Source: Lewinellaceae bacterium
GTDB taxonomy: Bacteria > Bacteroidota > Bacteroidia > Chitinophagales > Saprospiraceae
Reading direction: 5' to 3'
NCBI GenBank assembly: GCA_947459655.1
Contig: CANHEE010000002.1
Location: 1-64,000, forward strand
DNA length: 64,000 nt
Positions 6,030 to 12,258 of the stretch are shown piece by piece. Positions within the stretch are counted from its first letter, which is position 1, and each line of letters starts with the position of its first letter. Both the position numbers and the translations under genes were made by a program. Below the pieces are notes generated by a model. That model was not told the origin of the DNA. It was given only the letters and a program-made list of their open reading frames with translations, and made no database searches.

Positions 6030-7826
6030 TCAGAAGCAGTAACTGTTTGCTTCCAGCAGCGTATCTGCGATAAGCCTGCGTTTGTCCTTTACATTGATTG
6101 GTGGATACTTAAGAAAACGCTTCAGACCCATCAGAAACGTTTTTAATAAATCTCCTGCAGCATAAGAACTGATGGCATCGGTAGCCTGCTTGCCGATTTT
6201 TGCCGTTGCATCTGAGTAGAATACCTGCAGTATAGCGTCATAAACTTCCTGCCTAACCTTTTTATCGGGTAAATTACTTAGTTTTTCCACCCGAAGCAGC
6301 AGTGATTCGGCATTGAAAATTTCAATCATGACATCGGCAATGTTCATGACGATTTCCTGTTCTTCCTTCAGGTTCAGTTGGCCGTCCATCTGCATTTTGG
6401 CAGCCCCACCGGCTGCCATCAGCAGAATTTTTTTAAAGTCTTTCAGTGCCTGTTTTTCATCAGCATATGGTCCGGTCATTTTTTCCATGGATGGCATCGA
6501 AGCCAGTTCTTTCTGAACTGCCCAGGCCGGATTCACGATGTCCAGTTCACCCTTCAAGGCGAGCTTGAAGACCTGATCAACCATCAACAGGCGATTGATC
6601 TCATTGGTACCCTCATAAATTCTATTGATTCTTGCATCGCGGTAGGCTGGAGCAGCGCTGTATTCTTCTGAATAGCCGATTCCACCGTGAATCTGCAGTG
6701 TTTCATCCACCACGTAATCCAGCGCCTCAGAGCCTGCTATCTTCAGAATAGAGCACTCAATGGCATAATCCTCTGCGGCTTCTCGTGTCGCCTTAGCAAA
6801 ATCCAACCCCTGCTCAGCATAGGCTGCTTTGGCATTTTGGAGCAGATTTGATACCCGGTACTGAGAACTATCGGCAGCAAAAACCCTAATAAACTGCTCC
6901 GCCAGTTTGAATTTGATTGCACCAAAAGAACCAATGGATTTGCCGAACTGCATCCGCTCGTTGGCATATTTAACCGCAACATCAATACTCTTTTTTGCAC
7001 CACCAAGACTGAGTGCACCCAGTTTGAAGCGCCCGATATTCAACACATTGAATGCAATGAGATGTCCTTTACCGATTTCACCGAGGACATTCTCAGTTTT
7101 GACGGCCACATTCTCAAGAAAAACCATTCTGGTTGAAGACCCCTTTATACCTAGTTTGGCCTCCTCGTCGCCGAGTGTAAATCCTGGTGTATTGCGCTCC
7201 ACGATGAAACCTGTAAACTTCTCGCCATCAACCTTTGCAAAAACGATAAAAATATCGGCAAACCCGGCGTTGGTAATCCACATTTTCTGACCATTCAGGA
7301 TGTAATGCTTGCCGTCAGGTGACAAATCTGCCCGGGTTCTGGCCGCCAGCGCGTCTGAACCGGATCCCGGCTCTGTAAGACAGTAGGAGGCTTTCAGTTC
7401 ACCAGAGATCAGTTTTGGCAGGTAGTGGTTCTTTTGTTCCTCAGTACCAAAATATAGGATTGGGAGCATACCAATTCCTGTATGTGCAGCATAGGAAACG
7501 GTGAAGGAACCGGCAGGACCCAATACATCGCAAATGATGGTGTTGGTGTTGGTATCCATTTCAGTACCACCGTACTGCTGTGGCATATGTGTACCTAGTA
7601 ATCCCAGCGCACCCATCTTTTCAAGCATGCCAATGGTCACATCGGACTGCATTTTTTCTATGCTTTCCCGTACAGGAAGGATTTCATTGTGCAGAAAGTC
7701 GAGCGCCATGTCTCGAACCATAGCTTGCTCCTCATTGATTTCTTCAGGTATAAAAGTATCTTCAGGAAGAGAGTCTTTGATGATAAATTGACCACCTTTC
7801 AGCACATCTTTTTCAGTTGTTTCCAT
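6030..7826 (-). CDS. Acyl-CoA dehydrogenase, long form with C-terminal extension
   Basis: FAD enzyme for alpha,beta-dehydrogenation of acyl-CoA in beta-oxidation. About 598 residues, roughly 200 more than a short/medium-chain enzyme, with a VLCAD-like extra helical C-terminal domain. Motifs: YCLTEPGSGSDA (FAD/substrate loop), KMWITNAGFAD, IHGGIGYSEEY and RIYEGTNEINR, the last covering the usual catalytic Glu region. The start is ATG at 7826; a TTG two codons upstream is possible but less likely. The gene stands alone and is read from a promoter bracketed by two copies of a palindrome (7854-7867 and 7906-7919), so it is probably repressed by a TetR/FadR-like regulator. No electron-transfer flavoprotein or thiolase genes are adjacent. 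Confidence 0.92.
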   Translation of the reverse strand: METTEKDVLKGGQFIIKDSLPEDTFIPEEINEEQAMVRDMALDFLHNEILPVRESIEKMQSDVTIGMLEKMGALGLLGTHMPQQYGGTEMDTNTNTIICDVLGPAGSFTVSYAAHTGIGMLPILYFGTEEQKNHYLPKLISGELKASYCLTEPGSGSDALAARTRADLSPDGKHYILNGQKMWITNAGFADIFIVFAKVDGEKFTGFIVERNTPGFTLGDEEAKLGIKGSSTRMVFLENVAVKTENVLGEIGKGHLIAFNVLNIGRFKLGALSLGGAKKSIDVAVKYANERMQFGKSIGSFGAIKFKLAEQFIRVFAADSSQYRVSNLLQNAKAAYAEQGLDFAKATREAAEDYAIECSILKIAGSEALDYVVDETLQIHGGIGYSEEYSAAPAYRDARINRIYEGTNEINRLLMVDQVFKLALKGELDIVNPAWAVQKELASMPSMEKMTGPYADEKQALKDFKKILLMAAGGAAKMQMDGQLNLKEEQEIVMNIADVMIEIFNAESLLLRVEKLSNLPDKKVRQEVYDAILQVFYSDATAKIGKQATDAISSYAAGDLLKTFLMGLKRFLKYPPINVKDKRRLIADTLLEANSYCF

Positions 7827-7853
7827 TTTCAATAATTTTAAGGATAATTACTC

Positions 7854-7867
7854 AGCGAATTTTCGCT
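7854..7867. promoter_or_regulatory. Operator palindrome O1
   Basis: AGCGAA-TT-TTCGCT, a perfect 6+6 inverted repeat with a 2-base spacer, inside an 18-base exact repeat (7851-7868) that recurs at 7903-7920. It lies directly downstream of the -7 box at 7869-7876 on the minus strand, over the expected transcription start of the acyl-CoA dehydrogenase gene. Confidence 0.75.
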
Positions 7868-7868
7868 A

Positions 7869-7900
7869 CAAATTTAATATTTTTATCATTAAAAGTCAAT
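7869..7900 (-). promoter_or_regulatory. Promoter of the acyl-CoA dehydrogenase gene
   Basis: Minus strand: ATTG (7897-7900), 20-base spacer, TAAATTTG (7869-7876), matching the Bacteroidota consensus TTTG / TAnnTTTG. It is flanked on both sides by identical palindromes. Confidence 0.7.
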
Positions 7901-7905
7901 TGCTC

Positions 7906-7919
7906 AGCGAATTTTCGCT
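7906..7919. promoter_or_regulatory. Operator palindrome O2
   Basis: Second exact copy of AGCGAA-TT-TTCGCT, just upstream of the -33 box. Its centre is 52 bases (about five helical turns) from that of O1, so two bound regulators would sit on the same face of the DNA. It could also influence the divergent deoC. Confidence 0.75.
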
Positions 7920-8055
7920 AAACATTTTTTAGCAAGTGCCATTGTTTCAAAATAAGGGTATTTTCTAACAAACCCCGACAATTTTTACCTTACTGAGGTG
8001 TTTAAAGGCAACGAAACGACAATTTTTCCGTAGAACGCAAAAACTAAGACCCCGA

Positions 8056-8703
8056 ATGAATATCGCTCAATACATAGATCACACCAATCTTAGTCCGATA
8101 GCGACTACTGCTGACATCAGGAAATTATGCGAGGAGGCTATAGCGTTAGGATTCAAAGCTGTTTGTGTTCCGCCCTATCATGTCAGCAACGCATTTGATT
8201 TTATTGGCGAAAACAAGGTGCTGGTCTCCACTGTCGCGGGCTTCCCATTCGGATATTCAACCCTTCCACCAAAAGTAGAGGAAATTAAAAAGGCCATCGA
8301 CAACGGCGCCCAAGAACTGGATGTGGTATTGAATCTGGCAGCAGTAAAGGAGAAAAAGTGGAATTACGTTCGCAACGAAATAGAGATTTTAACCACAACC
8401 TGCCACCTGCAGGATCGTGTCGTCAAAATTATTTTTGAGACCGGCGTATTGACTAGGGATGAGATCGAAAGACTATGCGAGATTTGTTCGTCCGTCGGTG
8501 TTAATTTTGTAAAAACTTCAACCGGGTATAATGGCGCTGGAGCTACTGCGGATGCAGTCAGATTGATGAGGGCCAATCTGCCATCAAATATCGGAATCAA
8601 GGCTTCAGGAGGAATCCGGACAATGCAGAATGTATTGGATATGATTGAAGCAGGTGCCACAAGGATTGGCAGCAGTTCGGCAGTTTCTATCCTTCAGAAA
8701 TAG
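8056..8703 (+). CDS. deoC: Deoxyribose-phosphate aldolase
   Basis: Class I aldolase splitting 2-deoxyribose-5-phosphate into acetaldehyde and glyceraldehyde-3-phosphate in deoxynucleoside catabolism. The 215 residues form one TIM barrel. Catalytic residues are all present: Asp89 in QELDVVLN, Schiff-base Lys153 in NFVKTSTGY and Lys182 in GIKASGGIR. The length and the N-terminus (INIAQYIDHT-like) fit the family. It is divergent from the acyl-CoA dehydrogenase; about 135 bases separate the second operator from its start, and no clear two-box promoter is seen there. No other nucleoside-catabolism genes are near. Confidence 0.95.
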   Translation: MNIAQYIDHTNLSPIATTADIRKLCEEAIALGFKAVCVPPYHVSNAFDFIGENKVLVSTVAGFPFGYSTLPPKVEEIKKAIDNGAQELDVVLNLAAVKEKKWNYVRNEIEILTTTCHLQDRVVKIIFETGVLTRDEIERLCEICSSVGVNFVKTSTGYNGAGATADAVRLMRANLPSNIGIKASGGIRTMQNVLDMIEAGATRIGSSSAVSILQK

Positions 8704-11088: not shown

Positions 11089-12258
11089 TTATTCTCCTAA
11101 TACAGGCACGTAAAGATTGCCGGCAAGCACGTCCCGTGAAATAACTACCTTTTGAATTTCAGAAGTGCCTTCATAAATCTGGGTAATCTTCGCGTCACGC
11201 ATTAGTCGCTCAACGTGGTACTCCTTCACAAATCCGTAGCCACCATGTATCTGTACAGCTTCTACCGTATGTTTCATCGCTACCTGAGAAGCATAAAGTT
11301 TGGCCATAGCAGATGCTGTTCCGTACTCCATGTGGCGATCTTTTAACCATGCAGCCCTGTAAACCATAAGACGGGCAGCTTCGATTTCAGTTGCCATATC
11401 AGCCAGTTTGAATGCAATGGCCTGATGCTGGCTGATCTCCTTGCCAAACGCCTTGCGCTCCTTTGAATAGGCAACCGCCAGTTCATAAGCACCGGCAGCT
11501 ATGCCCAGCGCCTGCGCAGCAATACCAATCCTTCCTCCGGAAAGCGTTTTCATAGCAAATTTAAATCCGAAACCATCTTCACCGATGCGGTTTTCCTTCG
11601 GAACTTTCACATCATTATACATAATGGTATGGGTATCTGAAGAGCGGATGCCTAGCTTGTCTTCCTTCGCTCCAATGACCACACCATCCCATGACGTTTC
11701 GACAATAAGGCAGTTGATACCACGATGTCCCTTCGAAGCATCAGTCTGAGCAATAACCAGATGAAGCTTTGAGGAGCCTCCGTTGGTGATCCAGTTTTTG
11801 GTACCATTCAAAAGATAGTGGTCGCCCATATCGATGGCCGTAGTTTGCTGACTGGTGGCGTCACTTCCTGCTTCCGGTTCTGACAGACAAAATGAACCAA
11901 TCCATTCCCCACTTGCAAGTTTCGGCAGGTATTTGCGTTTTTGCTCGGCCGTTCCAAAGGTCTCCACTCCCCAGCAAACCAGCGAGTTGTTGACCGACAT
12001 CAAGACCGAACAGGAATTGTCAATTTTAGAAATTTCTTCCATCGCGAGCACGTAACTCAGGGTGTCCATACCCCCACCACCATATTCTGGTGAAACCATC
12101 ATTCCAAGGAAACCGAGTTCGCCCATCATTTTTACCTGCTCATGTGCAAACTGCATTTTGGAATCCCTTTCAATTACACCCGGCTTCAATTCTTTCTGTG
12201 CAAAATCCCTGGCGGCTGCCTGGACGGCAAGGTGCTCTTCTGTAAGTTGAAAATTCAT
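11089..12258 (-). CDS. Short-chain acyl-CoA dehydrogenase (butyryl-CoA dehydrogenase-like)
   Basis: A 389-residue FAD enzyme of normal family length, MNFQLTEEH at the start. Signatures: CLSEPEAGSDA, KNWITNGGSS, MKTLSGGRIGIAAQALG, AVQIHGGYGFVKEYHVERLMRDAKI and IYEGTSEIQKVVISR; the Glu in IYEGTSE is the usual catalytic base of short/medium-chain members. It lies 47 bases downstream of fabH on the same strand and ends in its own terminator, so fabH and this gene may share a transcript. It probably acts on C4-C8 acyl-CoA, but chain length is not readable with confidence. Confidence 0.93.
   Translation of the reverse strand: MNFQLTEEHLAVQAAARDFAQKELKPGVIERDSKMQFAHEQVKMMGELGFLGMMVSPEYGGGGMDTLSYVLAMEEISKIDNSCSVLMSVNNSLVCWGVETFGTAEQKRKYLPKLASGEWIGSFCLSEPEAGSDATSQQTTAIDMGDHYLLNGTKNWITNGGSSKLHLVIAQTDASKGHRGINCLIVETSWDGVVIGAKEDKLGIRSSDTHTIMYNDVKVPKENRIGEDGFGFKFAMKTLSGGRIGIAAQALGIAAGAYELAVAYSKERKAFGKEISQHQAIAFKLADMATEIEAARLMVYRAAWLKDRHMEYGTASAMAKLYASQVAMKHTVEAVQIHGGYGFVKEYHVERLMRDAKITQIYEGTSEIQKVVISRDVLAGNLYVPVLGE

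Follow-up and report, generated by a model that had tools for sequence, protein, structure and literature searches.

The window, which is the whole 64,000-nucleotide stretch analysed here (contig C2), comes from a Saprospiraceae genome of 2.99 Mb that is 99.8% complete. In this window, a FadE-type acyl-CoA dehydrogenase gene (fadE) and a deoC-like aldolase gene are divergently oriented, and the 18-mer CTCAGCGAATTTTCGCTA is present twice in exact form between them, at 7851-7868 and 7903-7920. Each repeat contains a palindromic 14-mer, the spacing between the two being 52 bp, and the palindromes bracket a Bacteroidota-type promoter of the dehydrogenase gene. The features of the locus are as follows.

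6030-7826, minus strand: FadE-type acyl-CoA dehydrogenase, the gene taken to be controlled, 598 aa from the ATG at 7826
7854-7867, no strand assigned: downstream operator AGCGAATTTTCGCT, within the 18-mer 7851-7868, over the predicted transcription start (-3 to +11)
7869-7876, minus strand: -7 box TAAATTTG of the fadE promoter, -12 to -5, consensus TAnnTTTG
7897-7900, minus strand: -33 box ATTG, -36 to -33, a 3/4 match to TTTG
7906-7919, no strand assigned: upstream operator AGCGAATTTTCGCT, within the 18-mer 7903-7920, -55 to -42
8056-8703, plus strand: deoC-like aldolase, divergent from fadE

The dehydrogenase reaches 758 bits against the NCBIfam model NF058590 (cut-off 600), its nearest named homologues are mostly from Saprospiraceae, and the best choice of start codon is ATG 7826 rather than TTG 7832. 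The -33 consensus is TTTG, and the gap between the upstream operator and the ATTG that represents it here is 5 bp. Because the sigma-A motif TAnnTTTG is placed at -12 to -5, as mapped in Flavobacterium (PMC9723704), the transcription start is predicted at 7864, 38 nt before the ATG, and one of the palindromes would therefore lie over the start itself. The arrangement given in the preliminary description, two identical 18-base repeats with palindrome centres 52 bases apart, one over the likely transcription start and the other beside the -33 box, was thus recovered exactly. The aldolase is probably not a target of the operator, the site being next to an aldolase gene in this genome only. Also, a second and shorter acyl-CoA dehydrogenase (389 aa) is encoded at 11089-12258 of the window, adjoining a FabH-like gene and having no operator.

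Throughout the genome, the exact AGCGAANNTTCGCT is found in five copies, all of them intergenic and two of them in the window, versus a single copy of the reversed control pattern. The remaining exact copies and a one-mismatch copy are located as follows.

C47:460: exact AGCGAANNTTCGCT, 83 bp upstream of a FadB-type 3-hydroxyacyl-CoA dehydrogenase
C156:4212: exact AGCGAANNTTCGCT, 13 bp upstream of a thiolase
C14:15449: exact AGCGAANNTTCGCT, 57 bp upstream of an acyltransferase
C68:346: one-mismatch copy AGCGAATATTCGCC, upstream of etfBA

Random scatter of the 14-mer, coding regions included, had been named beforehand as the result that would speak against an operator; such scatter is not seen, since the exact sites are all intergenic and mostly at beta-oxidation genes. 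The fatty-acid regulon that had been proposed is in turn borne out by the sites before the FadB-type, thiolase, acyltransferase and etfBA genes. Among looser motif matches checked in the same genome, the majority fall within genes. Three one-mismatch sites in intergenic DNA, upstream of genes such as those resembling carbamoyl-phosphate synthase and katG (identities judged by eye), were left out of the count.

The same association is observed in relatives. Exact sites are carried by 28 of 61 genomes from the family and order, with a total of 111 sites versus 11 for the reversed control. Inspection of the surroundings of all 111 sites places 76 before genes for acyl-CoA dehydrogenases (ACAD), FadB-type enzymes, EtfB, an Fe-S oxidoreductase, thiolase, acyltransferase, malate synthase or a regulator. 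Orthologs of the ACAD account for 34 site copies at 26 loci, FadB-type genes for 18 and etfB for 11. The membrane Fe-S protein (~460 aa), perhaps the ETF:quinone step of this group, has the operator upstream in five relatives (L147, L154, L189, L214 and L225), and the other assigned sites precede thiolase, acyltransferase, malate synthase and a regulator gene. The extended consensus at assigned targets is TTAGCGAAWWTTCGCTAA, the central two bases being A or T with one exception. The other 35 sites have no assigned target, and 10 of these are inside open frames of at least 150 aa; a FadH-like 2,4-dienoyl-CoA reductase and aconitase, judged by eye from sequence, are among the genes next to unassigned sites. 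Sites in G024, G039 and G056 are inside genes and were treated as chance. Across the class, exact-site counts are mostly unenriched outside the family, except for the promoter between a regulator gene and malate synthase.

The position of the site relative to the promoter is also conserved. At ACAD promoters, exact TAnnTTTG matches cluster 8-10 nt before the site start, and at FadB-type promoters they are found about 15 nt (-16 or -15) before it. At etfB promoters, the motif is instead at +42 to +46 from the site start, and for the upstream ACAD sites at +43 to +45 or +54 to +55. These fixed offsets therefore define two site positions, one over the transcription start (ACAD and FadB-type) and one just upstream of the -33 box (etfB and the second ACAD site), a geometry that, read from promoter sequence, would be compatible with repression and activation alike. 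A second site is present at 16 of the 26 ACAD loci, the window locus included, with spacings of 51-52 or 62-66 bp and none between. These correspond to about 5 or 6 helical turns, in agreement with the paired, phased operators first proposed for the long acyl-CoA dehydrogenase, and this phasing supports an arrangement in which two proteins, or two protein halves, would meet on one face of the DNA.

A candidate for the binding protein emerges from the relatives, where a protein of ~495 aa adjoins operator sites at three loci (L134, L233 and L238). At the last of these, in genome G048, two operators 60 bp apart are found upstream of the regulator gene itself (L238:2540-2613). A search with this protein recovers a relative in 27 of the 61 genomes, including the genome studied here, where the homologue (49% identity) is encoded on another contig.

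G000 contig C28:16452-17921, minus strand: candidate regulator, 490 aa

This location agrees with the expectation that the regulator is encoded outside the window. Among genomes carrying two or more exact sites, the regulator is present in 23 of 24, the single exception being G024, which has two exact sites, both within genes, and no match to the regulator; among those with fewer than two, it is present in 4 and absent from 33. The resulting table (23/4/1/33) gives a Fisher p of 1e-11 for 61 genomes that are related and hence not independent. In three genomes (G003, G022 and G049), the regulator is present and the exact operator is absent genome-wide; G003 and G022 are at the base of the family regulator clade.

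Moreover, the regulator gene itself frequently carries the operator. The exact core is found within ~300 nt upstream of it in 14 of 28 promoters from close relatives and in 12 of 13 more distant, class-wide promoters checked, for a chance rate of 0.0003 per promoter and a reversed control of 0. No site was found upstream of the regulator in the family members L249, L252, L253, L257, L259 and L260. The preliminary description had pointed to a regulator gene with the site in its own promoter, and this is found in part: the gene on C28 has GCGAAAAATCGC 31 bp before its ATG, overlapping its own -33 region, with one mismatch in the core.

The best candidate is, from its sequence and predicted fold, a PrpR/RamB-like protein with an XRE-type HTH, an IrrE-like domain and a CX2CX4C motif, and it likely belongs formally to the ScfR/IsaR family (PrpR, RamB and PccR). 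All 22 members examined match HTH_3 at the N terminus and contain the C-terminal CX2CX4C (C453-C456-C461 in the own protein); 21 of the 22 match the IrrE/M78-like domain PF06114 at E<=0.01, and the HExxH metal motif is absent from all 22. For PF09856, the ScfRs C-terminal domain, the own protein scores 21.6 bits, under the cut-off of 24, and 5 of 22 members match at E<=0.01. Also, it obtains 60.5 bits with the RamB equivalog NF038139, far under the curated cut-off of 700. The best PDB fold matches of its AlphaFold2 model (pLDDT 79) are chains of Mycobacterium tuberculosis PrpR (E 6.5e-11 to 1.4e-8; TM 0.62-0.64 by target length; sequence identity about 20%), followed by IrrE/PprI. On alignment, the CoA-contact residue Phe240 of PrpR corresponds to F230, nearly invariant among members, and His319 to His or Gln, being Gln in the own protein. 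An invariant Cys365 is present in the regulators and may correspond to Cys363, the fourth cluster ligand of PrpR, and the ligand-selectivity residue Phe155 of PrpR falls outside the aligned part. The regulator would probably sense acyl-CoA.

In its order of parts, an XRE-type HTH followed by an IrrE-like part and a C-terminal CX2CX4C, the protein resembles M. tuberculosis PrpR. PrpR, of the IsaR family, is a tetramer that binds CoA and short acyl-CoAs and requires a [4Fe4S] cluster held by CX2CX4C and a fourth Cys (PMC6765138). Its published sites, TTTGCAAA and TTTGCgAA, hold the half-site GC(A/G)AA (PMC6765138). Nonetheless, unlike in PrpR, the operator described here consists of two GCGAA arms oriented the opposite way and separated by a 2-bp A/T spacer, and its targets belong to beta-oxidation rather than to the methylcitrate cycle. 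RamB of Paracoccus, also a tetramer, requires two boxes, responds to CoA-esters and acts both as activator and as repressor (PMC10370305). Members of the PrpR/RamB family in general are described as tetramers that sense CoA-esters (PMC6765138, PMC10370305).

Taken together, we favor, with a probability of roughly three in four, that the repeats are operators of a regulon-wide PrpR/RamB-type factor (ScfR or IsaR family) encoded on C28, which would act as a repressor at fadE relieved by CoA-esters. The ligand-free regulator, probably a dimer of dimers, would occupy the two palindromes of the fadE promoter from the same side of the helix, and initiation would be blocked by the regulator bound at the downstream one. 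An increase in fatty acyl-CoA or another CoA-ester would then release or rearrange the regulator, and upon release fadE, fadB, thiolase and ETF would be induced together. Moreover, the upstream sites near -48 (fadE in the window and etfB) could additionally have an activating role, like that of the dual regulator RamB in Paracoccus. We infer a regulator that responds to acyl-CoA and acts as a repressor or in a dual manner, and across the sites identified it appears to control the whole fatty-acid degradation pathway in the family. Simple repression at both sites, as originally suggested, is plausible, but the -48 position would suit activation as well.

A rather unlikely alternative is that the same protein is mainly an activator, recruiting RNA polymerase from the -48 site, with the site at the start fine-tuning expression or giving feedback. 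The etfB sites and the upstream ACAD sites are consistent with such a role, since their positions correspond and are in phase with the helix (42-46 or 54-55 nt from the site start to the -7 box), and both M. tuberculosis PrpR (PMC6765138) and Paracoccus RamB (PMC10370305) activate. However, in FadB-type promoters (18 loci) and in most ACAD promoters a site coincides with the transcription start or lies close to it, which is where repression usually acts, and the site before the C28 regulator gene overlaps the -33 region of that gene.

A different protein altogether, the TetR- or FadR(GntR)-type acyl-CoA repressor originally proposed, is very improbable. Fatty-acid repressors known in many bacteria are of these types, and the palindrome is of suitable size for them; FadR, TetR-type and other repressors (E. 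coli, Bacillus and Thermus) share the pathway and have acyl-CoA as the likely signal. However, they belong to protein families unrelated to the candidate and were not found at these sites. Scans of the genome for TetR_N and GntR domains returned no GntR domain and only one TetR_N protein, which adjoins a TolC-like efflux gene with no site, and the site instead tracks the PrpR/RamB-like regulator. That the repeats are due to chance, or form an RNA hairpin or a terminator signal without acting as operators, can practically be dismissed: although a small hairpin could form from the palindrome in the 5' leader, the upstream copy falls beyond the transcribed region, and the comparative evidence contradicts this explanation, since throughout the family the motif recurs before the same genes and goes together with a single regulator.

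Returning to the PrpR/RamB-like regulator, its relatives outside the family suggest where it came from. Malate synthase, identified by sequence, is encoded opposite the regulator at 16 of 18 class-wide loci, and in nearly all of those the operator is within the shared promoter region, as for Paracoccus RamB, which is located beside malate synthase (PMC10370305). In a tree of 46 regulators, the main clade of the family (21 rows, support 100/99) nests beside malate-synthase-linked proteins and includes none of the malate synthase neighbors just described. In most genomes of this clade the operator is at beta-oxidation genes, and most of them, including the own genome, have no malate synthase, unlike the glyoxylate-cycle setting of RamB in Paracoccus denitrificans and Corynebacterium. 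A second, divergent regulator group of the family (L266-L268; G020, G010 and G022) is often beside malate synthase and has no GCGAANNTTCGC site; this copy may be the actual RamB-like protein and use a different operator. The simplest reading of these loci is that a glyoxylate-cycle regulator would have been co-opted into beta-oxidation while its operator core stayed nearly constant. A more far-reaching scenario, which we advance tentatively, is that beta-oxidation in Saprospiraceae came under the master control of a rewired RamB-like regulator of the glyoxylate shunt, which retained the operator core and lost the malate synthase link, and that at fadE a tetramer may bridge the two phased operators around the core promoter, toggling between repression and activation by acyl-CoA.

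The protein family itself has been described before; none of the open-licence papers searched describes the operator, its beta-oxidation regulon or the lineage. In those papers, no regulator or operator of fatty-acid degradation is reported for this group, and the operator motif is unmentioned. Pairing the regulator with its site provides a protein that can be tested directly, together with an operator of 18 bp and a list of targets. Moreover, this appears to be a case of one regulator changing pathway with little change in its operator core, and fatty-acid regulons would become predictable across many uncultured Bacteroidota.
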